Source: a virus
Strand: one strand, 5' to 3'
Length of the DNA: 56,259 bases
IMG/VR virus record: IMGVR_UViG_3300009194_000014
Location: 1-56,259 of that record
Below, piece after piece: positions 1,299 through 56,157 of this stretch. The position numbers were made by a program, and so were the translations under genes. The notes under the pieces are model-generated. The model was not told the DNA's origin and searched no databases. It saw nothing but the letters and a program-made list of their open reading frames with translations. Every line of letters starts with the position of its first letter. Position 1 is the first letter of the stretch.

Positions 1299-1934
1299 AT
1301 GATGATCGAATCTGTTAAGAGGTACGATGAAACGGAATCAGCTTTCGTCGGGTTCTGTGCTAGTCTTTTGGGTGTTGACGATGAATCCAAATTTGCCGCT
1401 TCCATGTTTCGCTGTTGGAGAATGTATGTTGAAAAGCGTTATAATCAGGGTATCAAGCGCGCTATGGTGTTGAACTTCGTTGATATGATATTCCATGAAA
1501 CACTGTTGAATAGGGAGTCGTTGCCCACCGACTTCTTCTATCACGTCTTCCATGATAAAACCTATTTGAAAGAAGGGTCTATCGATATAGACGAACGTGC
1601 AAAAGGCTCAAGAGGGGTTCGACATTTGGGATTCGATGGAGTTGCGAGGAAAGACTTCCCATTAATGCTTCTGGGGCAAGTTATGATAGAGATTTTCACG
1701 GTACACCCTGATTACAATCAGCCCGCTTGGATGATAAAATTCGAATCTACTCCCTACTATGTTCTCAAATCAACACCCATTGACGGGGATGATACGGTTC
1801 GCCATCTGCCATATATGTTAGATGAGACTGTTGATGAAGGTCTTACAATGTTACAACAGATCACCGAGGAATCCGAGAACGAGGAAATGCTTAAAGCATC
1901 GATCAATAATATCTGTAGTTTCAGAGCATTATAG
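1299..1934 (+). CDS. Hypothetical protein, 211 aa, paralogue of the preceding gene
   Basis: Function unknown. The start at 1299 is preferred over in-frame TTG 1278 and ATG 1281 because AGGAG lies 7 bases upstream and the resulting N-terminus (MMIESV) matches the upstream paralogue. N-terminal FCASLLGVD and C-terminal NNICSFRAL correspond to FCASIIRVD and NNMISMKHL of that gene; the middle is strongly diverged. Spacing to the upstream stop is 21 bases, consistent with one operon. Confidence 0.7.
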   Translation: MMIESVKRYDETESAFVGFCASLLGVDDESKFAASMFRCWRMYVEKRYNQGIKRAMVLNFVDMIFHETLLNRESLPTDFFYHVFHDKTYLKEGSIDIDERAKGSRGVRHLGFDGVARKDFPLMLLGQVMIEIFTVHPDYNQPAWMIKFESTPYYVLKSTPIDGDDTVRHLPYMLDETVDEGLTMLQQITEESENEEMLKASINNICSFRAL

Positions 1935-1943
1935 GAACAGGTG

Positions 1944-2261
1944 ATGTTCAAACAGACCTTCATAATGACTGATTCTGTTCCTATTTCCCTTTCATCTTCA
2001 ACTAGCAGCGTTGATTTGATACTGAGTGGGCGAAAGGTTATTCGCCGCGTGACTGGCGACCTGAATGAGATTCTATCTAGGGTGTTAATGAAGGTAGATA
2101 ACGAGACGGTCAATTTCCGGTGGTTCTTCTGCCATCGAGGAACCCATGGACATATCATTCTCAGTGAGGTAACCTATCTTCAGGCTAAGGAACTCGCCGT
2201 CATGGAGTCTATTTACGACCCCGTGGATATGAAAGAGATACTGGCGTTCTTGTCTTTGTAA
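1944..2261 (+). CDS. Hypothetical protein, 105 aa
   Basis: Small protein without recognisable domain. ATG 1944 is chosen because AGGA ends 7 bases upstream; ATG 1968 is a possible alternative. The centre (VNFRWFFCHRGTHGH) is rich in aromatic residues and histidine. The C-terminus KEILAFLSL fits the shared terminal pattern. It is co-oriented and close to its neighbours. Confidence 0.6.
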   Translation: MFKQTFIMTDSVPISLSSSTSSVDLILSGRKVIRRVTGDLNEILSRVLMKVDNETVNFRWFFCHRGTHGHIILSEVTYLQAKELAVMESIYDPVDMKEILAFLSL

Positions 2262-9121: not shown

Positions 9122-9131
9122 AGGAGCAATG

Positions 9132-11075: not shown

Positions 11076-11083
11076 CCATTAGA

Positions 11084-11106
11084 GGGGAACGATACGTTCC
11101 CCTTTT
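11084..11106 (+). terminator. Terminator after thymidylate synthase
   Basis: GGGGAAC / GTTCCCC stem (7 bp, loop GATAC) followed by TTTT, eight bases after the stop codon at 11075. Confidence 0.75.
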
Positions 11107-11126
11107 CCATAAAGGAGAACTAGAAA

Positions 11127-17600: not shown

Positions 17601-18024
17601 CCAATTGACTTCTCCGGCACCGAACACAACCACGTCCATTTTCATGGATGCAGGTCCGGGCGTGATGCCGTGCTATGGTGGGTTCTATCTCAAGGACAAT
17701 ACCAATGGGGAGTTCCCGGTTGCCGGTATGTATCTGAAAGAGAATCCGTTGTGCTATGCCAAGAATGCGGCTCGCTATGATCATGAAACACTCGTCAATG
17801 CGGTTGCCGAAATCCAGAAGTTCACGGATGCGGGCATTTCGAGCGAGTATATCTTTGACCACAACAAAGAGGGCTTCAGTGCGAAAGAACTGTATGATCT
17901 GATTCATCTGGCATGGCGTAAGAAGACCAAGGCGGTCTATTACATTCGTAACATCAAGAAAGGTTCTAACCTCGAAGAAGAGGTCGGCATGAGCCAAGCA
18001 TCATGCGAAGGTTGCGCAAACTAA
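14659..18024 (+). CDS. nrdA: Ribonucleotide reductase large subunit with two inteins
   Basis: The class Ia catalytic subunit reduces NDPs to dNDPs with NrdB and glutaredoxin encoded just downstream. The 1121-codon frame contains inteins of 258 and 131 residues; 732 residues remain, close to T4 NrdA (754). An N-terminal ATP-cone (MVTKRDGSVEDFKVEKV), the GGKRAGAITVELPIWH segment, active-site NLC / CNESFS and C-terminal CEGCAN (electron relay cysteines) are visible. The second intein splits the enzyme next to its active-site Cys. RBS AAGGAG; NrdB follows after 15 bases. Confidence 0.95.
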   Translation: MSTIMVTKRDGSVEDFKVEKVRKCINWACEGLQVNPLALESRFNEYLQTEVTTKVIQDSLVFCARSLATAADSDFVFVAGRLMTMNIWKETGIYEKPFYDVLTDGVVPYAIDNTILSKYTKAEIEELGSYMVQERDLNHSFGSVLTAINKYLLPNEAIQPMIMASSMIIASVEDQEIRVAKAKEFYDSLSNRELSLATPWWGNLRSDGNISSCFIIKPSDSLESIFANVTRAAMTSKAGGGLGVSMAAIRAQGSPVGGRPNSSKGVFNWTKIFNDVAIAVDQCFHPDTLVTTQNGFKAIKDIIPREDRVLTDNGKFNRVEEKIMYEQSEPMYRVRTAHDLVDTFVTGEHPVKALTNLDTLEHGYLDVKDLEIGDYLGQKIPSYTIESELTHEELYAYGTSLMLPGANHIDSRFLHIEPEKQMSIIFGMIDAKGSADNANELIIESANLAHEIRYLLLRNGIPVKSEYVGGSFKLTIQATGKLALMLGVNDVEEVDWIVSDGYIFSPITEFEDGIEYNSEVYDLRVQSIPSYQTHAFMAHNGGKRAGAITVELPIWHRDIEGFLEIQHETGDLRTKCFDIFPQVGMHDLFMKMDAADGENDWHTFCPYEVKQVLDIQLDEVYGKEFEKAYKKCVKAYEKGDLKNVAVYKTRNLIKSMMRTQFESGLPYVAYLDTINDDNPNDHEGTIPSVNLCVAPETLVLTDKGNLPIVTLKDQWVNVWNGHEFSEVLVEKTADHAHLLHVETEGGRSLDATDYHKWYRVVDGEMEMVRTFELKPGDEVCVVDNYPIDRIKSIDDQYRWSDVYCFNEPKRHLGVFNGIITGQCNESFSVVKPDVYGHSCNLISIVAGRVKDYEHLEYLAGLATRMLDNGIELTKDPMDIAGAHNERYRTIGIGIQGLHDWLAKNRKMYNDTKFIGEFAETIQFGAVKESIKLAKERGAYPAYSGSRWDTGKQIAKYRKHSRRGLDWNSLQTGLDQYGIRNSQLTSPAPNTTTSIFMDAGPGVMPCYGGFYLKDNTNGEFPVAGMYLKENPLCYAKNAARYDHETLVNAVAEIQKFTDAGISSEYIFDHNKEGFSAKELYDLIHLAWRKKTKAVYYIRNIKKGSNLEEEVGMSQASCEGCAN
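15505..16278 (+). other. Intein 1 in NrdA (258 aa), +1 residue Gly
   Basis: It starts CFHPDTLVTTQNGFKAI (block A), has TGEHPVKAL (block B) and ends THAFMAHN. The host sequence resumes with GGKRAG, the normal NrdA continuation of VDQ, so the +1 residue is Gly rather than Cys, Ser or Thr. The middle keeps one weak LAGLIDADG-like stretch (IFGMIDAKGS) and looks like a decayed endonuclease. Standard splicing chemistry would be impaired. Confidence 0.85.
16732..17124 (+). other. Intein 2 in NrdA (131 aa mini-intein)
   Basis: It starts CVAPETLVLTDKG and ends FNGIITGQ before CNESFS. The last residue is Gln instead of Asn, a known variant. At 131 residues it is at the minimum for splicing domains alone and has no endonuclease. 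The +1 Cys is the conserved NLC cysteine of the NrdA active site. Confidence 0.88.
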
Positions 18025-32428: not shown

Positions 32429-33466
32429 TTACAGGGTGTAGAGGTCAGCCAGTTCACTCACCCCACACTCGTACATGCTGTTTGCAGCACGCCTCACATA
32501 TTGCCGTGACTCAGGCAAGATATCAGGAAGCAAAGAAAGGATCGAATCTTCGTCCACATAAACATGGGGATTCTCGGCGATATGCTTCCCTGCGAACGTC
32601 AACAGTGGCATCCGGCGCTCAACGAGCGGTCGTTTATCGATACCAATGCGAAGTTTCGACAGGCTATCAAGCATGTCAACCGCATAGAACATCTCACCGG
32701 CTTTCTCTTGAACGACGAACCCTTCAACAATGAACCCATCGTGATATGCCGTTGGTTCGCCATCGAAAAACTCGAATACCGTTCTGGCGAACTCAATCAT
32801 ATCGCTACGCATAGCGGCATGGCTATGAACAGTTCCGTTTTCGAAACGAATCTGAACGACCGGCTCGCCATGAGAATGAGAAGCAAACAAAAACGCCCGT
32901 GTCCCTCCTACCACTTCATCAAAGAACCATTCCTTCGACTGGGTTGACGCGGGGAATGTTTTATGCTCCGTGCTAGGAGACATCCCTTGCAGGCTGAGAC
33001 GATTTTTGAAATACTCGGGCCACAGAGTTTTCACCTCTTCGTCTGTCAGTCCCGTGTCAAACCCATGGGTGATGATGTCAGTGACAAACTGAATCATGTC
33101 ATACTTATCAGACATGTGCAGTAAAAGCGCGGTCGAGTGAAGTGTGTGGAAGAACTCATGGATATTGCTCGGATTGCGAGCAAGCACCGCGAAGACCATG
33201 AAGAGATCGTCTTCCGTGATGTCGGTAGAACGCTCCAACGTCTGGGTAAGTTGTTCATACCGTTCCCGGTCACCATCACTGATTTCGATATTGTCAAGAT
33301 CAGGAAGGTCATCAAAAAACATATTCACTTGCGGGGAGTGAAAGACATTGACAAGCCCACGGAACATGTAATCGTCTTGGTATTGCTCTTTAACAAACGC
33401 AATCCTGTCTTCAGAGGATTGGATTGCTCGCAACTCATTGAACACGTCAAGGTAACTGTTTGCCAT
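32429..33466 (-). CDS. Degenerate T4-type DNA ligase (pseudoenzyme)
   Basis: 345 residues. The N-terminal part follows T4 DNA ligase: NELRAIQSSEDRIAFVKE (T4 NEIASIGSTKQKQAILEK), FHSPQVNMFFDDLP, TLWPEYF and TFPAS. At motif I the expected K-x-D-G is EVVGGTR: the catalytic Lys is Val185 and Asp is Gly187. DGFIVEGFVV and MFYAVDMLD..ERRMPLL correspond to motifs III and IIIa. The C-terminal OB domain (T4 has 487 residues) is missing, so adenylation is not expected. The frame is intact, so a binding role is possible. Confidence 0.65.
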   Translation of the reverse strand: MANSYLDVFNELRAIQSSEDRIAFVKEQYQDDYMFRGLVNVFHSPQVNMFFDDLPDLDNIEISDGDRERYEQLTQTLERSTDITEDDLFMVFAVLARNPSNIHEFFHTLHSTALLLHMSDKYDMIQFVTDIITHGFDTGLTDEEVKTLWPEYFKNRLSLQGMSPSTEHKTFPASTQSKEWFFDEVVGGTRAFLFASHSHGEPVVQIRFENGTVHSHAAMRSDMIEFARTVFEFFDGEPTAYHDGFIVEGFVVQEKAGEMFYAVDMLDSLSKLRIGIDKRPLVERRMPLLTFAGKHIAENPHVYVDEDSILSLLPDILPESRQYVRRAANSMYECGVSELADLYTL

Positions 33467-44044: not shown

Positions 44045-45466
44045 CTACCCTACATCGCGCATGTAGATCGTCTTGCAGTCTTCCAGTTCAATATCTGAAG
44101 CGCCCTCGGATGTAATCACCAGCAGGTTTCGACATTCCATCGGAAGCGCCGATTCCAGTGATTGGTGGGGGATATAGCCATCCGTGAAAATGATGAGTGC
44201 GTTGATAGGCTCACCATCATCCAGTTTCTCGCCAGCATATTCAGCCAACGGGGCCATGTCCGTTCCACCCCCGCCAATCCAATCGAGACTGACGTTACTG
44301 AAGTCGTCACCGTCCTCGGAGTTGTAGATACCGATAACGTGATAGCTGGTATCACATGTCACCAGATGCACGGTCCATGACTCAAATTGATCGAGAATAC
44401 CCTTAAGTTCGGCAGCGGCTTCCTTGAGTTCACGTTCGCTCATCGAACCTGACGTGTCAACACCCCACACCAGTTCAATCTTGCTCCCTGTCAAACTCGG
44501 GAACACCACACCACCTTCACCCGTTCGACGGGACAGACGATTGTAGGTCGGGCGTTCCTTAGTGGAGGCAACGATGTTTTCGTTAAGTTCATCTTTCCAG
44601 TTAACGCGGGGCTTCGCTAAGTCTTGGAAAGAACGCACCATGTCGCCTTCATGCTCACCAATACTTTTTGTGGCACTGGCGTTCGCAACAGCAGCCGCAG
44701 CTTCCTGACGGTTCATGCCCTTTTCACCGTCGCTTTGCTCACGCCCCGAAACGCTATCCATGGGCATCTGACCAGCCGGAGCGCCACCCGCGCTTCCTTG
44801 GCCCTTCGATGGCTTGTCCTTTCCTTGTTGCCCGGCTTGACCTTCACCGTCATCAGGGCGCTGACCGCCGCCGTGGGCTTCGCACGCTTTCTGCGCGTCA
44901 CCATCGTTCTCTTCAAGCAACAGATGGTAAATCTCATCAGATGACATGCCCACGAAGCGTTCTTGATATAGAACGAACTCGGGCCGTTCTACATAAAGAC
45001 GAAATCGCTCATCATGCGAAACACCATCGTTCTCAGTCTTGTACGTACCTGAACAGAACAAATTGATGTTGTAATCCGTGGCGATGTTCCACAATTCAGG
45101 ATTGTAACCGGATTCCATCTGACGCCCGGAGTGTTCCTGAAAGATATGAAGAATCTCATGGAGCAACACGAACGCCCGCTGTTCGTTGTTTTCCAAACGA
45201 TTCATCCAGAATACCGGGTTAATGAAGATCATGTTTTTGCCATTGACCGGCATCGCGCCAGCCGTGGGCAGATCGGGCGACCAGAAATACACACACTGAA
45301 ACATCAGATGCGCCATGAGCGGGGATGCAATCGCAATGCTCGCTCGTGCTTCCGAAAAGGTTTCCATCCATTCAGGCTGAATGTCCTTGTCTTTGATTAG
45401 AGTCGGCATCCGGGTCAGCATGACCTCGCCGATGCCATCCTCTTTCTTATCAGTCTGTGTGGTCAT
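44045..45466 (-). CDS. VWA-domain metallopeptidase-like protein, MoxR partner
   Basis: 473 residues. The N-terminal half carries VLLHEILHIF (H103-E-x-x-H107), a zinc-peptidase signature; a Gly/Gln/Asp-rich linker (about 205-260) follows; the C-terminal VWA domain has a complete MIDAS site: DTSGS (from 337), GGGGTD and IFTDGY. Such proteins work with MoxR AAA+ ATPases to remodel protein complexes; a MoxR gene lies upstream in the same direction. RBS AAAGGAG. Confidence 0.85.
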   Translation of the reverse strand: MTTQTDKKEDGIGEVMLTRMPTLIKDKDIQPEWMETFSEARASIAIASPLMAHLMFQCVYFWSPDLPTAGAMPVNGKNMIFINPVFWMNRLENNEQRAFVLLHEILHIFQEHSGRQMESGYNPELWNIATDYNINLFCSGTYKTENDGVSHDERFRLYVERPEFVLYQERFVGMSSDEIYHLLLEENDGDAQKACEAHGGGQRPDDGEGQAGQQGKDKPSKGQGSAGGAPAGQMPMDSVSGREQSDGEKGMNRQEAAAAVANASATKSIGEHEGDMVRSFQDLAKPRVNWKDELNENIVASTKERPTYNRLSRRTGEGGVVFPSLTGSKIELVWGVDTSGSMSERELKEAAAELKGILDQFESWTVHLVTCDTSYHVIGIYNSEDGDDFSNVSLDWIGGGGTDMAPLAEYAGEKLDDGEPINALIIFTDGYIPHQSLESALPMECRNLLVITSEGASDIELEDCKTIYMRDVG

Positions 45467-45534
45467 TCTCGTTGCTCCTTTGCTCGGTTGACCCGTATAT
45501 CATGGCACACATGGCGATGATACACAAGGTTTTG

Positions 45535-45768
45535 TTAATGCTTCGTCAGACTCTCTTTTTCAATCTGACGTTGACGCCCATAATGTCCTGTTTCTTCACG
45601 ACTCATAACAGGAACCGTTAACGCTTCTTCCAACGTCCAATCTGATTTGAGTCTCCGTCTAACCGTATCAGGTTTGATATTGTGTTTCCGGGCGAGCAAA
45701 GCCAATTCTCCGCGTTTCAGTTTACGATTAGATTTAGCAGTGACGATTTCAGATTGTGTTAACTTCAT
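45535..45768 (-). CDS. HTH DNA-binding protein, 77 aa
   Basis: MKLTQSEI... followed by an HTH (ELALLARKHNIKPDTVRRRL) and WTLEEALTVPV. The combination resembles the C-terminal DNA-binding part of phage homing endonucleases standing alone; it may be a remnant or a small regulator. The start at 45768 is chosen because the upstream residues overlap a terminator. Confidence 0.6.
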   Translation of the reverse strand: MKLTQSEIVTAKSNRKLKRGELALLARKHNIKPDTVRRRLKSDWTLEEALTVPVMSREETGHYGRQRQIEKESLTKH

Positions 45769-45800
45769 TCCCGTGCGTCCTATAAACAAGTCTGAGACAC

Positions 45801-45824
45801 AAAAAAGGGGAACCGAAGTTCCCC
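45801..45824 (-). terminator. Terminator after MoxR
   Basis: GGGGAAC TTCG GTTCCCC with TTTTTT on the minus strand; a stable UUCG-tetraloop terminator 20 bases downstream of the MoxR stop. Confidence 0.85.
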
Positions 45825-45844
45825 TTTCACCTTCCGAGTGTAAC

Positions 45845-47038
45845 TTACTTCACGCCCTTCAGCTTGGACAGAATCTTAGTCACTTGGCCTTGGAAAGCCT
45901 TGAACTTGCGGAACTTGGTGACCAGCTTGATATCTCGCTTGATTGTCTTCATGACGATGATTTTCATCTCGTCGGGGAGTTGTTCGAGGACTGTAGTAAG
46001 GTTATCCATGTCAGTTGTCATGTCAACCTCTTTGCCGTTCTCTTTCTCCCCATGGCGTCCCAGCGCATCCATAATCTCGAATGCCATGGAAGTCGATACC
46101 GCGTACTTGACTTCCTCGCGTCCTTCCGGCATTTGATACTTCAGCGTACCCTTACGAATGGCGCTCCAGTCGGGAAGTTCATCATAGAAGCGACGGAATC
46201 CCATGAACTTCGTGGCGATTTCTGAACCGATGGCACCGGCAACCGCAACCGTCAGCAGGGAGTCATCAGCGGTCAGCGCCGTGTTGTTCAGATGACGATT
46301 GACGAACTCCCATGAACGCGGTGTGGTGAAGGCCGCTTCCGTGTCATTCGGAGCGTTGTAGATGTCCTTTTTCGACCAGCTAAGGAAGCCAATGATAGAC
46401 GGATTGAAACGACGCTCTACCGCATACGTCAGGAATGATTCAGCCGCTTGCTTCGGGTCGATTTCCAGATGCATACCGAAACGGTTAGCCGCAGCCGGAA
46501 GCAGTTCCCGCGCACCAGTCTTGTCAGACTTCAGGTTACCCGCCGCGACGATGGCGCAAGTGTCTGGTAGCTTCGTGCCATTCTGAACAGTGCGGTCCAG
46601 AATCAGACGATAGGCGGCGTGTTGAACATGCGGCGGTGCGTTTTTGATTTCATCCAGAAACAGGATGTAAAACTTGTTCGGGTCTTGCGGCCACCATGAC
46701 GGAGTAGAGAAGAACATCTCTTTCGCATCATAAGTGGTTTCTTCACCGTTGCGATAGTGGCTCATTTCATAGCCCGCATCCGCAACATATGGAATGCCCT
46801 GAACGTCAGCGGCTTCCATGGCTGACAGTCGAATGTCAACGACTTCGACCGGCTTGCCGAGACGTTCGCCGAGACGCTGGGCGAGTTGTCCGATGATGGC
46901 ACTTTTGCCCAGACCGGGGGAACCGTGCAAACAGACCGGATCAGGGACGTAACCAGCGGTAAAGGCGTCGCCGAAAGATGCTTCGATCAGGGTAGCGGCT
47001 TGCTTGATGTTGACGACGTTTTGCTTGTTGCCAGACAT
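45845..47038 (-). CDS. MoxR-type AAA+ ATPase
   Basis: 397 residues. Walker A GSPGLGKS (39-46), Walker B YILFLDE (124-130), sensor AAGNLK and a helical C-terminal lid (about 290-397). Members pair with VWA proteins to remodel substrates, as in RavA-ViaA or CoxD-CoxE; the VWA gene is next downstream after the small HTH gene. RBS AAAGGAAACG. A possible promoter lies at 47088-47116. Confidence 0.88.
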   Translation of the reverse strand: MSGNKQNVVNIKQAATLIEASFGDAFTAGYVPDPVCLHGSPGLGKSAIIGQLAQRLGERLGKPVEVVDIRLSAMEAADVQGIPYVADAGYEMSHYRNGEETTYDAKEMFFSTPSWWPQDPNKFYILFLDEIKNAPPHVQHAAYRLILDRTVQNGTKLPDTCAIVAAGNLKSDKTGARELLPAAANRFGMHLEIDPKQAAESFLTYAVERRFNPSIIGFLSWSKKDIYNAPNDTEAAFTTPRSWEFVNRHLNNTALTADDSLLTVAVAGAIGSEIATKFMGFRRFYDELPDWSAIRKGTLKYQMPEGREEVKYAVSTSMAFEIMDALGRHGEKENGKEVDMTTDMDNLTTVLEQLPDEMKIIVMKTIKRDIKLVTKFRKFKAFQGQVTKILSKLKGVK

Positions 47039-47087
47039 TGTATCGTTTCCTTTGCAGTGAATAACGGTTTGTTTCGATTACATGGGT

Positions 47088-47116
47088 AGGTTACAAGGAT
47101 GAGAGGGTCACGTCAA
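47088..47116 (-). promoter_or_regulatory. Possible promoter TTGACG-17-TAACCT
   Basis: The minus strand has TTGACG (47111-47116), a 17-base spacer and TAACCT (47088-47093, three of six). Weak -10; would serve the MoxR gene. Confidence 0.4.
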
Positions 47117-47135
47117 CCCTCCCAAAGCACATCCA

Positions 47136-48785
47136 TCACATTTTGCTTTTAGCCAACTTCGCCATGGTGGTTTTGATCATTTTCCATGACCGCTTGGCAA
47201 TCATGTCGTGAAACTCGTTGAGACGTTCCGGCTTGTCCTTGAGTGAAGACGCGAAGTATTCACTCATCCCTTCGACCACACGGTACATGCTATGGTCGGT
47301 TTCCTTACTCTTCACGCTGGAATCGTAATACGCCGCCGCATTCTTGCGATGCTGTTCCGGCACGTTCGCTTCCTCTAGCACCGATTCGAGCATGTTGAGC
47401 GCGAATTGGCGGTCGAACTTGCTATCCAGCATTAGTGCAATCATCGGCTGAATCGACTCATTCCACTCTTTAATCAGATTGGTGATGGTCGTTTCGAACG
47501 CGATATGGCTTTCCACCACCCCACGAGTATGCCGCGCAGTCAGATTGAAATTCTGCGAAGTCAACCCCATGAGTTCCGTGCCAGTGTCCACATTATGGGC
47601 GAGCAGACGAAGGTGATGCTTTTTCGTCCCGTCGATAGACGTGATTAGCTGGACAGTCATCTTGATGTTGTCGCGGCAATTCGAAGCCAGCCGGTCCTCG
47701 ATGTCAATGGTCAGGGACTGTCGTCCACCTTCCTGCGACACGTAAACCCGTTGCGGCTTGTGCGGAATTTCCATCGCTTCGAGTTCATGCCGGAGCGATT
47801 CGTAAGCGGCTTTCGGGGGCAGTACCCCGTACAGTCCGGTTACAGTAGAAATGACCTGCTTCTCACCGATACGGTCACGATCAGTCACCACACCGAAAAA
47901 CTGAGTATCACGCCCGCTGGTGGTAATGCCCTTCGCTTCCTGATAATCGTCGTTCTCTTGGAAGTACAGCGGCACCACATCGAACGGATAGTCTACGCAG
48001 TCGATAGCCATGTCCCAAGCGTTTTCGACTTGGGTCAAGTCCATGACGCCTGTCGGGTACTTGGCAATCGGGTTCATGCCTTCCGGCTCGGGTTCCGGTT
48101 CAGACTGAGTTTCTACGACTTCAGGTTCCTCTTTCTTTTCTTCCTCGGGAAGCGGCTTGTACTTGTCCGGGTTGCGCATGAACTCGGGCAGGGAACTATC
48201 ATCGTCTACCCCGTCCAGCAGACTCATAAACTCTGCCCAATCCTTAGCCTCTTCCTTCGTATCAGGCTCGATGGTCGGTTCCTCTTCGACCGGCGCGGAA
48301 GTGGATTCAGTCTTTTCTTCCGAGACAGGCTCAACTTCGTCGGCCTTGCCTTCGGATTCCACTTCCACATCATCGAGTGCGGACAGATCGACCACCGGAG
48401 CCTCTTCCGTTTCCGGGGCTTTCTGTTCCTGTTGTTCGACCGGGGCAGCCTTCGGGCGGCGGAACTTGGGCTTGGCGGGCTTCAGCTTTTTCAGTTCACG
48501 CACCAGCGGGGCCGCAGCGGGCGGATATTTCTGACCGGACTGCTTTGATTCCTCTTTCAGCACCGTATCGAGGAAATGTACCAGACTGCCAAGGTCCGTA
48601 CTCAGAACCTCATAGTTTGGCGCGTAATCCTGTTTTTCTGTCGCGCTATCGTCGGCGAAGGGAAGTACGGTCCCCCCTTCGAGTTCACCGCTGTCAAGCG
48701 CTTCGTTGTGACGCTGGACTGCCCAGTTGAAGTGCGGGGCAGCTTTCGGAGTCAGGGACAGTTTCAGGTTCAGTTCGCGTGCCAT
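47136..48785 (-). CDS. Large acidic protein, DUF932-like C-terminal domain
   Basis: 549 residues from ATG 48785 (GAAGGTGATTCC upstream). Residues about 110-250 are a disordered acidic stretch of Glu, Pro, Ser and Val. The C-terminal 300 residues (TGLYGVLPPKAAYESL, SLTIDIEDRLA, LTSQNFNLTARHTRGVVESH) resemble the plasmid/phage DUF932 family, judged only by general pattern. It precedes the MoxR and VWA genes and may be a substrate or adaptor of that pair. Confidence 0.5.
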   Translation of the reverse strand: MARELNLKLSLTPKAAPHFNWAVQRHNEALDSGELEGGTVLPFADDSATEKQDYAPNYEVLSTDLGSLVHFLDTVLKEESKQSGQKYPPAAAPLVRELKKLKPAKPKFRRPKAAPVEQQEQKAPETEEAPVVDLSALDDVEVESEGKADEVEPVSEEKTESTSAPVEEEPTIEPDTKEEAKDWAEFMSLLDGVDDDSSLPEFMRNPDKYKPLPEEEKKEEPEVVETQSEPEPEPEGMNPIAKYPTGVMDLTQVENAWDMAIDCVDYPFDVVPLYFQENDDYQEAKGITTSGRDTQFFGVVTDRDRIGEKQVISTVTGLYGVLPPKAAYESLRHELEAMEIPHKPQRVYVSQEGGRQSLTIDIEDRLASNCRDNIKMTVQLITSIDGTKKHHLRLLAHNVDTGTELMGLTSQNFNLTARHTRGVVESHIAFETTITNLIKEWNESIQPMIALMLDSKFDRQFALNMLESVLEEANVPEQHRKNAAAYYDSSVKSKETDHSMYRVVEGMSEYFASSLKDKPERLNEFHDMIAKRSWKMIKTTMAKLAKSKM

Positions 48786-48821
48786 TGGAATCACCTTCAA
48801 ATCGTTTTGTTTACGTGACCA

Positions 48822-48850
48822 ATCATATTCCAGATTAGAAGACGTGTCAA
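48822..48850 (-). promoter_or_regulatory. Promoter TTGACA-17-TATGAT
   Basis: The minus strand has a perfect -35 box (48845-48850), a 17-base spacer and TATGAT (48822-48827, five of six). It drives the gene at 48785 and perhaps the MoxR set. The -35 box overlaps the stop of the preceding gene. Confidence 0.75.
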
Positions 48851-49092
48851 GATTCTGTTTGGATAATCTTATCGAGCATTTCACTTACCTTGCCCAGCTT
48901 GAAAGCCATTTGTTCGGCGTCATTAACCGCACGGAGCATGACTGCCTGATTTGACGCTTGAGCGCGACGCAAATCTTTTTGCAGCAGCTTCGCATGAAAG
49001 CGCCGGGCTTCCGGGTCACCGATACGCTTGATTTCTTCAGCGCGGGCGATGACGGCTTTCGGGTCAGTTGAAATAGTCTTAACGTTGGTCAT
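48847..49092 (-). CDS. Hypothetical helical protein, 81 aa
   Basis: ATG 49092 follows AGGGG. Almost wholly helical and charged, with a QASNQAVMLRAVNDAEQMAF segment. Unrecognised. The start overlaps the end of the upstream gene. Confidence 0.6.
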   Translation of the reverse strand: MTNVKTISTDPKAVIARAEEIKRIGDPEARRFHAKLLQKDLRRAQASNQAVMLRAVNDAEQMAFKLGKVSEMLDKIIQTES

Positions 49093-49399
49093 GTTCGTTA
49101 CCCCTGCGTGATGGTGGCCCCCACATAAGGGGCGGTTGACCGGGGCATCCATGGCTACTTCGATAAGTCCTGCGTTGGACTCGCCCCCGTTTCTCGAAAT
49201 AGCGCAAAGCCTGTACTACGTCTGCCTTGTCTTTACTTGACTTCGCGTTCAAACCCGCGCTTTCCGTAATGTCAATAGTAGACAAGTCATGCTGTTCGGT
49301 CAAGATACAAATCAAAACCTTTTTTCGAATTTCCTGCGTTCGTTCGTTGAGTGGCCTTCCAATTCGACCGCTAACCACTTCGTCGTCATACTTTTCCAT
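49079..49399 (-). CDS. Winged-helix-like protein, 106 aa
   Basis: ATG 49399 with AAGGAG upstream. RKKVLICILTEQHDL...DVVQALRYFEKRGRVQRR reads like a winged helix; the final 25 residues contain Cys/Pro/Gly. Possibly a small DNA-binding regulator. Confidence 0.55.
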   Translation of the reverse strand: MEKYDDEVVSGRIGRPLNERTQEIRKKVLICILTEQHDLSTIDITESAGLNAKSSKDKADVVQALRYFEKRGRVQRRTYRSSHGCPGQPPLMWGPPSRRGNEHDQR

Positions 49400-49476
49400 C
49401 ACTAACTCCTTGATATGAGTGATGTTAATGATTGGGCGCGATTTAATTGTACGCGCCCAATTCACTTCTAAGTCTC

Positions 49477-49767
49477 TTAGCGAGTCACTTCTTTCACGTC
49501 CCAAATGTGGATAACATGCCATCCCGCTTTCGCTGCCGCCGCCTTGGCTTCACGTTCCGCCTGTTCCCGAAAGATGGTATCTGACGTATGCGTATAGAGT
49601 TGATACGGCTTGAGCAGGCTGGGCGACTCCCTAACCACTACATCAACACGCAACCCTTTCACCGGGGACACGACAGGCTCGGGACGTTTGTGTTTCGGCT
49701 TCCCTTCCTTGAAATTTTCGAGTACCCGCTTCGCATTCCTCTCAAACGCCTTCAAATCCTTATCCAT
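49477..49767 (-). CDS. Hypothetical protein, 96 aa
   Basis: ATG 49767 follows AAAGGTGG. Lys-rich N-terminal half, then YQLYTHTSDTIFREQAEREA and an Ala-rich helix. Unrecognised. Confidence 0.55.
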   Translation of the reverse strand: MDKDLKAFERNAKRVLENFKEGKPKHKRPEPVVSPVKGLRVDVVVRESPSLLKPYQLYTHTSDTIFREQAEREAKAAAAKAGWHVIHIWDVKEVTR

Positions 49768-49790
49768 AAACCACCTTTCTAATTCTATCG

Positions 49791-50045
49791 TTAAACGTCT
49801 AACCACGAATCTAATGGTAACCGATTGATCGCGTTTAGACAATACCCTTTCGATTCCAATTCTGTTACCACGTCCTGATACTGTTTCAGATTCGCAACCC
49901 GCAACCGCTTCGCTGCCCCTGAGCCGATCACGAAGAAGCCCTTTTCCAAGGAAAAGGCCCGGTATGTCATGGGCGGGGAATCGACATGGGGGAACACGGC
50001 GATGGTAGCAGTACCTTGCCTACGGAATGCAGCATCAAGTCGCAT
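49791..50045 (-). CDS. Hypothetical protein, 84 aa
   Basis: AAAGGAG precedes ATG 50045. Mixed alpha/beta; unrecognised. Confidence 0.55.
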   Translation of the reverse strand: MRLDAAFRRQGTATIAVFPHVDSPPMTYRAFSLEKGFFVIGSGAAKRLRVANLKQYQDVVTELESKGYCLNAINRLPLDSWLDV

Positions 50046-50056
50046 AGCAGACTCCT

Positions 50057-50257
50057 TTACTCGGCGGCGAGCATCGTGATAATCTCTATCCGCCTTAGCT
50101 GTTTATTAATACGGTCAGGGTGACGCTTAGTACCTTTCAGATACTCAAGGAAGTCTAATTCCTTGAGCCATGCCGCGTCAAACTCATCAGCAGTCATTCG
50201 CCGATATGACTCCACCATTGGAAGTTCGGAATCGAGAAACTTTTTGTTACATGCCAT
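50057..50257 (-). CDS. Hypothetical protein, 66 aa
   Basis: ATG 50257 lies inside the end of the upstream gene with GGGGG upstream. Helical; unrecognised. Confidence 0.5.
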   Translation of the reverse strand: MACNKKFLDSELPMVESYRRMTADEFDAAWLKELDFLEYLKGTKRHPDRINKQLRRIEIITMLAAE

Positions 50258-50921
50258 GACAATGCCCCCATAGTTCACCGTCTTCATCAAAGTCATATTC
50301 ATTCGCTTCAATGGATTCAATCACCGCTTCGTCGCTAGTCAGATATTCGTATTCCTTTTCCAGATTGCGATAAATCCAATCGGCAAACGAACGAAGAGTA
50401 TCTTTCAAATGATCGTGATTGTTTTCAACCGCGTCCTCCATGAGTTTGAACGCGGCTTCCTCGCCCATCAAATGTTCAACGGGTATCCATTTGTCAGAAT
50501 CCGCTTCGATATGAACATCCATACAACCTGAATTGTAATAATAATGATGACCATCGTGTTTCATTGTCGCTTCGAGCGAATACCGGGCATCTTTCTGAGC
50601 CGCTTCCAAGGCTTCACCAATCTTAATCAGGGCTTGTAAATCGTCACCACCAACATGATCGGTCAGATTTGCTTTCCAATCCTTGTTGTAAGTGTAACTT
50701 CCTTCGAAACAAGCCCCATCGCCTTGACTATAGAATCCCGAAAAGTAAACATTTTCTATCTCGATTCCCAACGTCTCGCCAATCTGCTTGGCGGCTTCTA
50801 TCGTGAAGTCATACCATTCATGATCGATGTTTATATCCCTGAATCGCTCGATTGCATTCTCTTTTGCATCGTCAGACAATTCATTGAACTTGAAAAGTGT
50901 CACTTCGACTTTAGTAGGCAT
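50247..50921 (-). CDS. Conserved-looking acidic protein, 224 aa
   Basis: The N-terminal part (FKFNELSDDAKENAIERFRD, then VYFSGFYSQGDGACFEGSY) is of a type common in phage and plasmid genomes without known function. Acidic throughout. ATG 50921 follows GAAGGAAG. Confidence 0.65.
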   Translation of the reverse strand: MPTKVEVTLFKFNELSDDAKENAIERFRDINIDHEWYDFTIEAAKQIGETLGIEIENVYFSGFYSQGDGACFEGSYTYNKDWKANLTDHVGGDDLQALIKIGEALEAAQKDARYSLEATMKHDGHHYYYNSGCMDVHIEADSDKWIPVEHLMGEEAAFKLMEDAVENNHDHLKDTLRSFADWIYRNLEKEYEYLTSDEAVIESIEANEYDFDEDGELWGHCHGM

Positions 50922-50947
50922 CTTTGAACTTCCTTCAATGATTGGTA

Positions 50948-51250
50948 TTAAGCACAAAATGGCGGCAAGTCGTCAATGTCAAGGTTGATAACATCATCGT
51001 AATCAACAACTTCCCGCAATTTTCTAATCAGTAAGACATTAGCCCTTCGATTCGGATAATACTCATCCAAGGCATCGAAGTAAGCAGACAGCTTTTCTGG
51101 CATTGCCCTTTCACACTCTTCAAACGTGTTTTTCTTAACATACTCAAACAAGTCTTTAAAGTGACCCCGTACCTTCTCGTCGGCATATTCATTAGCTTCA
51201 TCGACACGACGAAGGTACTCACGGAATGGCATTGCTACGGTAACAGACAT
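50948..51250 (-). CDS. Hypothetical protein, 100 aa
   Basis: ATG 51250 follows GAAGGAAG. Charged helical protein with PFREYLRRVDEANEYADEKV. Unrecognised. Confidence 0.6.
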   Translation of the reverse strand: MSVTVAMPFREYLRRVDEANEYADEKVRGHFKDLFEYVKKNTFEECERAMPEKLSAYFDALDEYYPNRRANVLLIRKLREVVDYDDVINLDIDDLPPFCA

Positions 51251-51315
51251 AATCGAACTTCCTTCGTTGGTGAGTTTTGCGAGGGACATTCTAACACGAA
51301 TGCCCCTGACAAACT

Positions 51316-51879
51316 TCACACGTATACTTGGTCATCGTCACCAAGATACACGTCAACTGACCCGTAGACGTTCGCGGCTTCCGTCAGACGGTCGCCCAAC
51401 TCACCTAGTCCCAGGTCCCAGAAACCGGCACCATGACGGTTTCGAGTCAGGGCGAAGTCATGCCCAAGATAATGCCACGGTGTCCCTTCACTCGGGTCAT
51501 ATTCTCGGCGTTCGACATACTCCAAAACATCATCCATGTTATTGGAAAGAAAGTCATCAACATCGTCACGAGACGCTTTGATAAGTTCCTCGGACGCTTG
51601 GAACCATTCTAATCCGTCAAGCATAGGCGGTTCTTCACCAGAATGTTCCCATGCTGCCCGGATGGCATCTTTTTCAGATTTAAAATCACCGTGGCCTTCT
51701 GTCAAATCATCGAGTTCCCATGCCCATCCCCGTGAACGGTCAGGCAACAAGCGAACGCGATACCCGTCAGGCGCTTCACTATAATCAGGTTCGCCGCCTG
51801 TTGACCACAACAGGGCTTCGATATAGCCAGCGATAACAGCGTCACGGTTCTTTTCGGCAATGTCAGCGAGAGTAGGCAT
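51316..51879 (-). CDS. Acidic hypothetical protein, 187 aa
   Basis: Strongly acidic. The C-terminal block (DFALTRNRHGAGFWDLG...LTEAANVYGSVDVYLG) occurs in many phage proteins of unknown role. TTCAAAGGGG upstream of the start, the RBS block shared by eight early genes. Confidence 0.65.
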   Translation of the reverse strand: MPTLADIAEKNRDAVIAGYIEALLWSTGGEPDYSEAPDGYRVRLLPDRSRGWAWELDDLTEGHGDFKSEKDAIRAAWEHSGEEPPMLDGLEWFQASEELIKASRDDVDDFLSNNMDDVLEYVERREYDPSEGTPWHYLGHDFALTRNRHGAGFWDLGLGELGDRLTEAANVYGSVDVYLGDDDQVYV

Positions 51880-51943
51880 GACAGAATCCCCTTTGAATGG
51901 CTACGGTATGAATGATAGTGGAAACAGAATCAGATTGCAACCG

Positions 51944-52150
51944 TCAGGATGCAATCGAAACAGGAACAGCGGAAGGCTTGGCGTATCTGACACCAGAAAC
52001 GAATTGCGTTTCTTTTGCCGGAATCCTAACTAGAACACACTCGGATTCGATGAGACGGCGACGGCGCTTGTCTCGCGCCGCTTCCCGTTCAGTGATTAGC
52101 GCACCGCTGGGGATAGACCCCAGCGACTTTTTAGCTTGATAGTAACGCAT
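51944..52150 (-). CDS. Hypothetical basic protein, 68 aa
   Basis: AAAGGGAG precedes ATG 52150. Arg-rich middle (RDKRRRRLIES). Unrecognised. Its ATG overlaps the stop of the upstream gene. Confidence 0.55.
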   Translation of the reverse strand: MRYYQAKKSLGSIPSGALITEREAARDKRRRRLIESECVLVRIPAKETQFVSGVRYAKPSAVPVSIAS

Positions 52151-52332
52151 TAGTGAAACTCCCTTTCACATTGGTCGCTCGACATGATTGATACAATGTC
52201 GGCACAACTTGGCGGATACTGGTCACCGAACACGAAGCGCACGAAGGCTTCATTTGGGCCTTCGACTTCCTTTACCATGATGCAATCGTTGACAGTATCG
52301 TGAGCGATGACGACGAAAGTTTGCATAGCCAT
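52150..52332 (-). CDS. Hypothetical protein, 60 aa
   Basis: ATG 52332 follows CAAAGGGAACATC. Small alpha/beta protein. Unrecognised. Confidence 0.5.
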   Translation of the reverse strand: MAMQTFVVIAHDTVNDCIMVKEVEGPNEAFVRFVFGDQYPPSCADIVSIMSSDQCEREFH

Positions 52333-52369
52333 GATGTTCCCTTTGAGTTCCCTTGGACAGTATAGACTA

Positions 52370-52612
52370 TTAGACGACGAGTGTGACCGGAACGATTTGA
52401 CTAGCATCATCAAATGTCCTACCACGTTTGACTGAGTAAGCACTAAACCCACGTTTCTTACACTCGTCATACGCGATACGCTGGTGAGACTCGGACGATT
52501 CTCGACCATCAACGATGATAACCGCCCGGTCGCCGCACGCTTCAATCAGGCGCTCACTGTATCCGTTGTGGATAGTCGGCACGGCGCGGGTATAGAATTG
52601 GATAAAGTACAT
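52370..52612 (-). CDS. Small protein, YFIQFYTR family, copy B (80 aa)
   Basis: Close paralogue of the gene at 53939: both 80 residues with YFIQFYTR at the start, LIEACGDRAV, DGRES, ECKKR and a final VPVTLV. Rossmann-like alternation of strands and helices. TTCAAAGGGG upstream. Function unknown. Confidence 0.7.
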   Translation of the reverse strand: MYFIQFYTRAVPTIHNGYSERLIEACGDRAVIIVDGRESSESHQRIAYDECKKRGFSAYSVKRGRTFDDASQIVPVTLVV

Positions 52613-52657
52613 TTCGATTCCCCTTTGAACTACGTTTTGGTGGATGACACTTCAACC

Positions 52658-52692
52658 ATGCCGACTCATATAGAATCGGCATGAGTAAAGAT
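52658..52692 (-). repeat. Intercistronic element, copy 1 (variant stem)
   Basis: On the minus strand: TTTACTCAT GCCGA TTCTAT ATGAG TCGGC. The inner pair is GCCGA/TCGGC instead of GCCCA/TGGGC, a compensatory change. It begins next to the stop codon of the gene at 52692. Confidence 0.75.
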
Positions 52693-53057
52693 CACGCCAT
52701 GTCTAGGTCCATCGAGGATGCGTCAGGTAGCATGGATGCAACATGGCTTCCATTCCATTTCACTTCCTGACCACCATGCGTATAATACCATTTCCAATCG
52801 CGTTGGTATATACTACCAATCCCCATAGGAAGATTGTCAATCATAGCATTCAACCGCGATTTGGTCGTCCGAGTTTGATAACCGGCGTCAGTCAGGTACG
52901 TTACCAGACCACAATCCATACCATTTGCAATCATGTGTCCGTGCAGAAACACCTTGAAATACTTTCCTGACTTCGAATGGCGTACTTCCGTATTGCCTGA
53001 TTTGAAGTCTTTACGTTCACGAATAGCGTCGATCATCTGGCGTTCAACTTTGCGCAT
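52692..53057 (-). CDS. Hypothetical protein, 121 aa
   Basis: Basic N-terminus, then SGKYFKVFLHGHMIANG and WKWYYTHGGQEVKW. Resembles a short protein made of small beta units; unrecognised. TTTAAAGGGG upstream. Confidence 0.55.
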   Translation of the reverse strand: MRKVERQMIDAIRERKDFKSGNTEVRHSKSGKYFKVFLHGHMIANGMDCGLVTYLTDAGYQTRTTKSRLNAMIDNLPMGIGSIYQRDWKWYYTHGGQEVKWNGSHVASMLPDASSMDLDMA

Positions 53058-53084
53058 GATATTTCCCCCTTTAAACAGATTATG

Positions 53085-53180
53085 TCACATTGATGTTGCT
53101 TTGATAAAAGCAAGGTAGAACATCCCGAAAATCAAAAGGCCGGGAATCAATTCCCGGCCCACAATCCAAAGCAAGCGCAT
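53085..53180 (-). CDS. Membrane microprotein, copy B (31 aa)
   Basis: MRLLWIVGRELIPGLLIFGM plus a short tail. It matches copy A at 53845 (GRELIPGL, IFG, FY.AFI.AT conserved), which supports real coding despite its size. One transmembrane helix. Confidence 0.65.
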   Translation of the reverse strand: MRLLWIVGRELIPGLLIFGMFYLAFIKATSM

Positions 53181-53243
53181 CTTACATATCCCATTGCAGT
53201 AGGAAACGGATTTTAGTTGGTACCCGAGAGACACGAAACAACC

Positions 53244-53277
53244 ATGCCCACTCATAGAATGGGCATGAGTAAAGATC
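53244..53277 (-). repeat. Intercistronic element, copy 2
   Basis: CTCAT GCCCA TTCT ATGAG TGGGC on the minus strand, directly after the stop codon of the gene at 53276. Confidence 0.75.
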
Positions 53278-53767
53278 AAAGATCGCGTTTGCGTTGAACA
53301 TCAATAACCGCTTCGGTCAAAATGACGCCATGACGTTCGAGCCACTTGCCAAACGGTTCGTATGCGCCATTGTCGTGGCGATACCTAGCAGGAACCCAAC
53401 CGGCAGCCGTAATCAATTCGGCGGCGGTTTCTTCCCATTGGTCACCGCCGCCATATGACGACCCGACATACTTCCCATTTTGAATGTCACCATTCAAGAA
53501 CACAAACACACTATGATACGTGTTCCCGTATGACTTTTGAAACCAACGGCGTGCCTCGACGTGTATGGTAGGCTTTGAACCATCCTTGACTTTGAACTTG
53601 CCAGTGTTGAAAGCAGATTCAATGACACTCGCCTTGTAATGATGGCGAGACTTAAATTCGTCATCGCTTACCAAGATGGCATCGCCGCGACCGCTGACGG
53701 ATTCGACCGTCAGGATACCTTTAGCGGTTTCAATTTGCATACCAGAAATAAGAATCGGCGTAGTCAT
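53276..53767 (-). CDS. Hypothetical protein, 163 aa
   Basis: Contains ARRWFQKSYGNTYHSVFVFLNG, a stretch common in small phage proteins of unknown function. ATG 53767 follows TTCAAAGGGGTAACATC. Basic C-terminus. Confidence 0.65.
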   Translation of the reverse strand: MTTPILISGMQIETAKGILTVESVSGRGDAILVSDDEFKSRHHYKASVIESAFNTGKFKVKDGSKPTIHVEARRWFQKSYGNTYHSVFVFLNGDIQNGKYVGSSYGGGDQWEETAAELITAAGWVPARYRHDNGAYEPFGKWLERHGVILTEAVIDVQRKRDL

Positions 53768-53807
53768 GATGTTACCCCTTTGAATTGCGTTATAGGTCAA
53801 ACCAACA

Positions 53808-53842
53808 ATGCCCACTCATTAGAATGGGCATGAGTAAAGTTC
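53808..53842 (-). repeat. Intercistronic element, copy 3
   Basis: CTCAT GCCCA TTCTA ATGAG TGGGC on the minus strand, three bases after the stop of the microprotein at 53845. Confidence 0.75.
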
Positions 53843-53844
53843 AC

Positions 53845-53937
53845 TTAGTTTGTTGCCTGAATGAAAGCCATATAGAACAGCCCGAAAATGATAAGTCCGG
53901 GAATCAGTTCTCGGCCATACAACCACACTTTACGCAT
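53845..53937 (-). CDS. Membrane microprotein, copy A (30 aa)
   Basis: MRKVWLYGRELIPGLIIFGL plus a short tail; paralogue of the microprotein at 53085. Starts one base after the stop of the YFIQFYTR copy A gene, so likely co-translated with it. Confidence 0.7.
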   Translation of the reverse strand: MRKVWLYGRELIPGLIIFGLFYMAFIQATN

Positions 53938-53938
53938 A

Positions 53939-54181
53939 TCACGCCACCAATGTTACAGGAACAATTGTTTGATTGCGAGTGAACGACTCACCACGATGAA
54001 TTGAGTATCCAGAATAGTTACGTTTCTTACACTCTTCGACTGCCAGTATTTCTTGGCTTGTCTGAGACTCACGACCGTCGATGATACATACAGCCCGGTC
54101 GCCACATGCTTCAATAAGATTACGTTTGTAACCATTCCATTCATTCGGAACAGAACGAGTATAGAATTGGATAAAGTACAT
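53939..54181 (-). CDS. Small protein, YFIQFYTR family, copy A (80 aa)
   Basis: Paralogue of the gene at 52370, about half of residues identical. GAGAG precedes ATG 54181. It is followed at once by the membrane microprotein; the pair recurs in altered order downstream. Confidence 0.7.
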   Translation of the reverse strand: MYFIQFYTRSVPNEWNGYKRNLIEACGDRAVCIIDGRESQTSQEILAVEECKKRNYSGYSIHRGESFTRNQTIVPVTLVA

Positions 54182-54192
54182 ATCAACTACTC

Positions 54193-54555
54193 TCACTCTT
54201 CAATGAACACAAAGAAAGCGTATACACTTTCATAATAGTCTTCGTCACTTTCTTCCAAGTCAAGGAAAAGGCGACGTGTTCCTTTGACAGCGGGCCTGAT
54301 ACGATTGACGGCCGCATGGGCTTTCTTATACCACCGGTCGCCCGCTTCACCGGAATCGTCTTGGACGATGGGATTCGACCCGGCAACCGCACCCTGATCC
54401 AATTCAGAATGCAATTCTTCCTTGAGCGCTTTGACTGTCATGCCCCGGTATACGGGTATTTGAATATGCGGCAGATGATGCCCTGACCAAAAGGATGACA
54501 GGCACGTATCGACATGGACACATTCGAGTTTACGCGGAACTTGATACTCAGACAT
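54193..54555 (-). CDS. Hypothetical protein, 120 aa
   Basis: ATG 54555 follows TTCAAAGGGGTAACATC. The N-terminal half (VHVDTCLSSFWSGHHLPHIQIPVY, then MTVKALKEELHSEL) is typical of small early phage proteins; acidic C-terminus. Unrecognised. Confidence 0.6.
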   Translation of the reverse strand: MSEYQVPRKLECVHVDTCLSSFWSGHHLPHIQIPVYRGMTVKALKEELHSELDQGAVAGSNPIVQDDSGEAGDRWYKKAHAAVNRIRPAVKGTRRLFLDLEESDEDYYESVYAFFVFIEE

Positions 54556-54599
54556 GATGTTACCCCTTTGAACTACATGGATGGACTGACACTTCAACA

Positions 54600-54635
54600 A
54601 TGCCCACTCATTAGAATGGGCATGAGTAAAGTTCA
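54600..54635 (-). repeat. Intercistronic element, copy 4
   Basis: CTCAT GCCCA TTCTA ATGAG TGGGC on the minus strand, overlapping the stop codon of the gene at 54633. Confidence 0.75.
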
Positions 54636-54920
54636 TTTAACCGTCATTGCCAGTAGCGACAGGATACGAATACCAGTGAATGTCAGCGGCGCAATGAATG
54701 CCGGTTTGCCGTCTTTGGGATATACAGTGACGAAGTGACCAACAAGATTGGTTCCTTCACACTGCAAGTCCATACCGCGTTCATGCAGCATGTCTAACCA
54801 AGTTTGTGGCAGCGCAAAATCGACCGAATACTCGTTTTCGGGATACAATTCCCTTGCCAACTCGCCTTTAGTCGGGCGGCGATTCAGCAAATCTTGTTCT
54901 TCCATAAACATCTTGAACAT
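54633..54920 (-). CDS. Hypothetical protein, 95 aa
   Basis: TTCAAAGGAG precedes ATG 54920. Contains LNRRPTKGELARELYPEN. Unrecognised. Confidence 0.6.
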   Translation of the reverse strand: MFKMFMEEQDLLNRRPTKGELARELYPENEYSVDFALPQTWLDMLHERGMDLQCEGTNLVGHFVTVYPKDGKPAFIAPLTFTGIRILSLLAMTVK

Positions 54921-54947: not shown

Positions 54948-55163
54948 TTAACCACACCGCATATCAGATTCTTCGATGCCTACAACTTCGCAGTAAAACG
55001 ATACTTTGTCGTTAAAATACTTAATGGCATCTTTCTCGGAGTATCCAGAAAGAATTGTATGTTCGTTTGTTGTCCCCGCATCAACTCGACGAAAGATGAA
55101 CGAAGTATTCACGTCGGACCAATACAATTGGAAATGCGTGACGCCATAGCGACGATTTTTCAT
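54948..55163 (-). CDS. Hypothetical protein, 71 aa, first gene of the early operon
   Basis: TTCAAAGGGGTAATGAC precedes ATG 55163. It is the first gene downstream of the boxA leader. Small alpha/beta protein, unrecognised. Confidence 0.6.
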   Translation of the reverse strand: MKNRRYGVTHFQLYWSDVNTSFIFRRVDAGTTNEHTILSGYSEKDAIKYFNDKVSFYCEVVGIEESDMRCG

Positions 55164-56058
55164 GTCATTACCCCTTTGAATTGCTTAGGAATGTTACGTA
55201 AAGCCGTAACGGCGAGCTAGACTTTCCAAAGAATGGAAAGCCCAGCCCGTTACCGCTTCATTTCCGTTTTGTGGCTACTGAGTCGCAAAGGGAGCGCCAA
55301 TCCCACCGAATCCGTTTCAAATTCACCTACAATCCCCGAGGGGTACCGCATTGCAGGTTACAGCGGCAGACGCAACGGCACGTCGATAATTGTCTGCCTG
55401 TAAGCGCCCATCCTTGGGCAAACTTCATCCTAATCGGGCAAAGCGTGGCCATACTTCGTGAACCGCGCCGCATTTGCCCATTATCTAATGAGTAACGCGG
55501 TTCACTGACCCGACAATTGCACCACCGGCATACTCACTTTCTCCGAGGGAGTGAATATTATGGAAACCAATTATGGTCATGATGCAATCATCCGAGAAGG
55601 CCCATGCGTCGATCGGTTGGATGTTTTCGTTTCTGGTATAAAACATCCAAAAGTACCGGCTTGCTTATTTTAATTCGCGCCACACGAATACATAAGATAG
55701 TACTGCTACCAATCTAAGCATGTTTCTCGGGCAAACTATTCAGTACCGTGTTCGCACATAGACGAACAACTATTAGCCTGAAAATCCGGCACCCGCACGA
55801 TGTTTACGTGCTGGCAGAAAGCACATTTGCCGATGCTTTCACTTGACACATTAATCCCTTGGGCGGTGGTCGCCTGCACCAAAAAGTATCAGCATACTTC
55901 GCACGGTCGCAGTAATACTGGTCATCCCGTTAAGATACACTTCCAGCGCACGCACCCTATCTGCGAGGGAGAGTGTGGCACCCGTTCTAAAGATGCGACA
56001 ATCCTTTCCCGTTGGGCCTAATGCTTTGCCATCCGATTTGTTAAAGAGCGTGTTGCTA
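55164..56058 (-). ncRNA. Long structured untranslated leader of the early operon
   Basis: About 890 bases without a convincing gene on either strand. Read as minus-strand RNA it can form several hairpins: a 12-bp stem with a 2-base bulge (55358-55371 with 55392-55403), a 10-bp stem GTGAACCGCG / CGCGGTTCAC (55458-55467 with 55496-55505), and a nested stem near 55206-55252 (CTTTCC/GGAAAG inside GTAACGG/CCGTTAC). Such a leader after tandem promoters and boxA suggests cis-acting RNA for antitermination or stability. Function inferred. Confidence 0.55.
56038..56049 (-). promoter_or_regulatory. boxA, rRNA-operon type
   Basis: The minus strand reads GCTCTTTAACAA, identical to the core of E. coli rrn leader boxA, the site bound by NusB-S10 for antitermination. 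It begins a few bases after the predicted start of the proximal promoter. Confidence 0.75.
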
Positions 56059-56086
56059 AGTCTAGCAAATCAGATTGTGTTGTCAA
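56059..56086 (-). promoter_or_regulatory. Early promoter P2, TTGACA-16-TAGACT
   Basis: On the minus strand -35 at 56081-56086 and -10 TAGACT at 56059-56064; same boxes and spacing as P1, 71 bases away. Confidence 0.75.
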
Positions 56087-56129
56087 GCCAATCTTGCGCT
56101 TGTTTTCAAATCCGTTTTGCTTGATTCCA

Positions 56130-56157
56130 AGTCTATCAGGCTTTCGTGTTCTGTCAA
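56130..56157 (-). promoter_or_regulatory. Early promoter P1, TTGACA-16-TAGACT
   Basis: On the minus strand -35 at 56152-56157 and -10 at 56130-56135. Tandem with P2, as is usual for rRNA operons. Confidence 0.75.

Follow-up and report, generated by a model that had tools for sequence, protein, structure and literature searches.

Tandem promoters followed by an exact rRNA-type boxA at the head of a phage early operon, with similar leaders in other phages

The DNA analysed here, referred to as the window, is 56,259 bp long and corresponds to a linear virus record in IMG/VR. Judging from its sequence, it represents part of a large phage of the myovirus-like type. Its genes include those for a DNA polymerase, DnaB helicase, ribonucleotide reductase, thymidylate synthase, and tail tube and sheath proteins. 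The ribonucleotide reductase ORF (14659-18024 (+), 1121 aa) and the thymidylate synthase ORF (9129-11075 (+), 648 aa) each contain a middle segment that matches a different PHROG (phrog_36001 and phrog_21587, respectively), an intein-like interruption. A run of minus-strand genes extends from 55163 to approximately 44045 and beyond, and is headed by an untranslated leader at the right end of the window (Table 1). The first-pass annotation had described this run as an early operon of more than 10 kb with closely packed genes and no tRNA or rRNA. No tRNA genes were found in the window and an Rfam search of the leader and window matched no family, GOLLD and ROOL included, but the operon begins with a gene-free stretch of approximately 870 nt rather than with packed genes. 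Small basic N-like proteins escape Pfam-type models, and a Pfam search of ten early proteins left nine without a match, the tenth belonging to an uncharacterised phage family. Terminator-like hairpins lie in the path of the operon at 53160-53137 and 45828-45803, and just beyond the run at 44014-43995, while no such site was detected from the leader to the first genes.

Table 1. Features of the early operon and its leader in the window
Feature	Position	Strand	Description
Promoter P1	56130..56157	-	TTGACA-16-TAGACT, TGn ahead of -10 box
Promoter P2	56059..56086	-	TTGACA-16-TAGACT, TGn ahead of -10 box
boxA	56038..56049	-	exact rrn-type, GCTCTTTAACAA
Untranslated leader	55164..56052	-	~870 nt from boxA to first ORF (874 nt)
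Candidate helix, 5' arm	56023..56038	-	AATCG-[GAT]-GGCAAAGC, from last boxA base
Candidate helix, 3' arm	55432..55444	-	GCTTTGCCCGATT
First early ORF	54948..55163	-	71 aa; Shine-Dalgarno-like AAGGGG; no Pfam/PHROG match
Second early ORF	54633..54920	-	95 aa; phrog_38716
Third early ORF	54193..54636	-	147 aa; common to Slicko01, Slickus01, Lana, UAntarctica and phiK7A1
Remaining same-strand early genes	44045..54196	-	

Both of the tandem promoters claimed in the first-pass annotation were located on the minus strand where it had placed them, offset by 71 bp and each with a spacer of 16. The rrn boxA that it reported shortly after them was also confirmed, as an exact copy that begins 9 nt past the -10 box of P2. 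This boxA fits the pattern GYTCTTTAANA near a transcript 5' end with sigma70 promoters upstream. From base composition, an exact boxA is expected by chance 0.008 times per window, and the combination TTGACA-N13-TGNTAGACT 0.0005 times. The start of P2 transcripts is inferred to lie near 56052, only 2-4 nt 5' of boxA, so its exact position matters. If it were a few nt further downstream, P2 transcripts would lose boxA and P1 alone would be left, with boxA approximately 75 nt from the 5' end of its transcripts. A boxB-type hairpin is absent upstream of the window boxA, where the spacer after the P2 -10 box is 9 nt and the local fold is weak. The window contains a second exact boxA at 33385-33396 (+), antisense to a 345-aa minus-strand ORF, with a TTGACA approximately 40 nt upstream but without a good -10 box.

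No credible ORF was found between boxA and the first early ORF. The predicted fold of 55170-56053 has a z score of -5.0 and is better than 20 of 20 shuffles; the signal peaks in the tile 55200-55599 (z -5.2), and the part adjoining boxA is unremarkable. Searching phage records with the leader DNA returned no match, and none of the loci compared contains a homologue of the window leader RNA. A candidate helix of 13 Watson-Crick bp, with one 3-nt bulge, would enclose approximately 590 nt and no gene. When bulges were allowed, pairing of this quality was equalled by 1 of 400 shuffles and by 3 of 141 control promoters, and by duplex energy the helix is not significant (p 0.6). The pairing is suggestive of a leader/trailer-like helix after the window boxA.

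Among cultured phages, the DNA polymerases nearest to that of the window (39%) belong to Alishewanella phages Slicko01 and Slickus01, and a search via PolB for near relatives returned only remote ones. The 147-aa early gene is shared with these two phages and with the Pseudomonas phages phiK7A1, UAntarctica and Lana; no relatives of it were found in IMG/VR. Four of the five (Slicko01, Slickus01, Lana and UAntarctica) have an exact boxA upstream of the shared gene and on its strand, either at the head of the early operon or close to it. The exception is phiK7A1, which has the gene without an exact boxA. Homologues of a 179-aa early gene were found at 12 loci, with one near-match to boxA, lacking clear context, in the fetched stretches and no exact boxA in the parent records.

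In Slicko01, exact boxA copies at 8107 and 8341 each lie directly behind a TTGACA promoter, and a copy with one mismatch, GTTCTTTAACAA, is found at 8774. This cluster precedes a long series of genes on one strand, tRNA genes among them, and all three motifs are kept in Slickus01. The boxA regions of the two phages have a mean column identity of 98% over 1,063 columns, compared with 92% over the wider 2.5 kb. Of the three tandem boxA of OQ508956.1 (8107-9057) and OQ508957.1, the second precedes a perfect helix of 22 bp that surrounds an ORF of 71 aa. In Lana and UAntarctica, the exact boxA is 8.6-10.3 kb upstream of the shared gene, in a large gap that opens a same-strand gene run, and the first annotated gene is approximately 575 nt (Lana) or 540 nt (UAntarctica) from boxA. 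Over 412 nt their leader RNAs share 61.7% identity, and each has a second boxA-like sequence, CTCTTTAACA, in its interior. The conserved leader spans are at 1536-2130 (-) and 1484-2040 (-) of the fetched stretches, respectively. From this sequence conservation, the Lana and UAntarctica leader is possibly a new noncoding RNA family.

Leaders of this type were sought across IMG/VR with the pattern TTGACA-(14-18)-TANANT-(4-30)-GCTCTTTAACAA, using the same pattern with boxA reversed as the control. Promoter plus boxA was found in 94 stretches, versus 2 for reversed boxA. There were 76 distinct leaders, and the 71 with a spacer of at least 16 nt were examined for hairpins (stems of 4 or more) in the interval from the -10 box to boxA, which is the position occupied by boxB in rrn operons. 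Such a hairpin is present in 34 of the 71, with 12.2 expected from shuffles. A perfect long-range helix (score of at least 13) of 16-31 bp follows boxA in 11 of 65 distinct leaders, versus 0 of 141 control promoters. Its 5' arm comes right after boxA (from +18 in one case) and the partner is 77-534 nt downstream. In several cases a single small ORF lies within the helix and terminates just ahead of the 3' arm, while in others the helix contains no ORF. Seven isolate-derived viral records share GCTCTTTAACAAATCGG followed by conserved sequence (TTAAGTGACATCAAA..), and several of them have a TTGACG-type promoter-like site upstream.

Neither longer untranslated stretches (p 0.66) nor more tRNAs (p 0.26) were found after boxA leaders than after other promoter-like sites; these p values are heuristic, the control sites include spurious ones, and the comparison is weak either way. 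The proposal that such leaders are, as a rule, followed by longer untranslated stretches or by tRNAs was therefore dropped as unsupported. As no general link between boxA and untranslated stretches emerged from this comparison, protection of untranslated RNA from Rho is not a demonstrated general rule.

Exact boxA copies are also present in well-known phages. In T7 it occupies 813-824, downstream of the annotated start of promoter A3 (750) by 63 nt and ahead of gene 0.3, which begins at 925. A long post-boxA helix of the kind seen in SP6-like phages is absent from T7, and the T4 and lambda genomes contain no exact boxA (GYTCTTTAACAA is absent from lambda). SP6 has two exact copies, and in K1E the order is boxA, a helix around gene 2.5, boxA, and a helix around gene 2.8. 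Similar units of boxA, helix and gene are found in related SP6-like coliphages. The SP6-like tandem units, each comprising boxA, a helix arm, a small gene and the other helix arm, precede the ocr gene and resemble repeated pre-rRNA units. Comparison of three Cronosvirus leaders revealed that 16 of 16 compared pairs are kept, 7 of them via changes on both sides, a count that is favoured by the arms having been chosen because they pair. In ICP1 the most abundant transcript is an approximately 800-nt noncoding RNA (PMC7567579). Its region, 10098-11108 (-) of the fetched stretch, starts with a TTGACA promoter-like site and was rejected as a boxA carrier, as it contains no boxA.

In E. coli, NusB and NusE associate with boxA of the growing rRNA transcript, and the complex opposes Rho (PMC5725501, PMC4807359). 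We consider it probable that host NusB-S10 on the leader RNA of the window likewise protects polymerase, mainly from Rho, through the leader and into the early genes. On this view, the region would control the main early operon and would have the layout of the start of an rRNA operon. Host sigma70 polymerase would initiate at the two tandem promoters, and host NusB and S10 (NusE) would bind boxA in the transcript as they do on pre-rRNA and, with NusA, NusG and probably SuhB, travel along with polymerase. Rho would be kept from stopping transcription in the ribosome-free 870-nt stretch, and polymerase would thus get to the early genes and onward for approximately 10 kb. As the leader is 870 nt of untranslated, folded RNA, protection from Rho is a likelier need than readthrough of intrinsic terminators, and by analogy the leader appears to be a type of RNA for which boxA is known to be important. 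It has been proposed that boxA tethering helps the rRNA leader-trailer helix to form (PMC10250234), and the phage helices found right after boxA fit that role. The tether between boxA and polymerase may also aid folding of the leader RNA. What the sequences themselves show is the promoters, boxA, the folded untranslated leader and a boxA ahead of the shared early gene in related phages, and from these we infer factor binding, Rho protection and the folding role at the window leader.

The interpretation of this site as mimicry of rRNA control, put forward in the first-pass annotation, is strengthened in so far as boxA is placed behind promoters far more often than chance allows (94 versus 2) and is found again ahead of the shared early gene in related phages. 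Together, the sequences suggest that imitation of rRNA control could be widespread, and little noticed, in related and unrelated phages including T7. The elements of such imitation would be a promoter, a hairpin, boxA and a long leader-trailer helix. We advance only tentatively, and would not yet favour, the wider view that phages from T7-like podoviruses to large myoviruses imitate the pre-rRNA leader using host factors only, so that early genes or noncoding RNA would be packaged as units that are transcribed and processed in the manner of rRNA. The window would be a large-phage member, with boxA and a helix enclosing a noncoding RNA of approximately 590 nt.

A different reading, which we regard as unlikely, is that transcription here serves mainly to make the leader RNA itself. 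This would be a large, structured, noncoding RNA produced in quantity in the manner of GOLLD or ROOL, boxA would aid both its full synthesis and its folding, as the rRNA complex does for pre-rRNA, and the early genes would be a secondary target. The 870 nt without an ORF and their z score of -5 are consistent with this, as are the 13-bp helix that runs from the end of boxA and closes 590 nt, and the 61.7% identity of the Lana and UAntarctica leaders over 412 nt with the internal CTCTTTAACA; the top transcript of ICP1 is a noncoding RNA of approximately 800 nt (PMC7567579). However, the ICP1 RNA region has no boxA, and the fold signal of the window is concentrated in 55200-55599 and unremarkable beside boxA. 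No homologue of the window leader was found for covariation, Rfam gave no match, and no terminator-like site separates the leader from the first genes.

The exact boxA at 33385 (+), antisense to an ORF and without a good promoter, indicates that exact matches do arise here without context, and the boxA of the operon could in principle be another, leaving merely a strong early promoter pair. Given the expectation of 0.008 per window, the exact placement behind a promoter, the presence of boxA before the shared early gene in related phages and the 94 versus 2 stretches in IMG/VR, we regard a chance match as very improbable. There is scarcely any likelihood that boxA represses, as in the suhB leader, and tunes early expression to free Nus factors. 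In E. coli, suhB is repressed by a boxA close to the start codon, and the survey in that study considered boxA copies no more than 50 bp from the start of a gene (PMC5725501), whereas the window boxA is 874 nt from the first ORF. Its rrn-like placement behind promoters points to antitermination, not repression.

In textbook phage antitermination, a phage protein (N or Q) or a special RNA (put) is needed. In the open-access literature searched, phage boxA appears in a lambda N or N-like context, and no paper brings early genes and a phage leader together with boxA and RNase III. No open-access paper on boxA in T7 or K1E/SP6 was found, though earlier notice elsewhere is possible, especially for T7. 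Phage leaders with an rrn-type boxA are apparently an undescribed group, with the window as a member. If the proposed function is true, many phages borrow host rRNA machinery and tie early transcription to host growth control. The helices that follow boxA in SP6-like and other phages widen the resemblance to pre-rRNA architecture. Phage leaders, with E. coli K-12 and T7, also offer a small, genetically easy system in which a possible contribution of boxA tethering to formation of the leader-trailer helix could be studied.

Among known systems, the Gammaproteobacteria rRNA operon leader (boxB-boxA-boxC and a leader-trailer helix) is matched in the window by the tandem promoters and exact boxA, and in many other phage leaders by the upstream hairpin and the long helix right after boxA. 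The phage cargo differs, being a noncoding leader or small early genes instead of rRNA, and the window is without the upstream hairpin and has a short, uncertain helix. GOLLD and ROOL, which are large ornate phage RNAs, resemble the window leader in being long, structured and noncoding, but the window leader has no Rfam similarity to them and no tRNA island. Lambda-type nut sites consist of boxA then boxB and act with the phage N protein. They share with the window a phage early operon, boxA and the (here proposed) use of host Nus factors, whereas the window has the full 12-base rrn boxA and the Pfam search recognised no N protein among the ten early proteins. HK022 put, which likewise belongs to the leader of a phage early operon and lies close to its promoter, is described as acting through RNA alone (PMC9378689). 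The suhB mRNA leader likewise has boxA in a transcript other than rRNA, though that boxA is repressive and near the start codon (PMC5725501), whereas the window boxA is promoter-proximal. The leaders of T7, SP6, K1E and the Cronobacter phages resemble that of the window in having an exact boxA close to the start of the early region, but in the SP6-like and Cronobacter phages small genes are surrounded by long perfect helices, whereas no gene lies within the candidate helix domain of the window.
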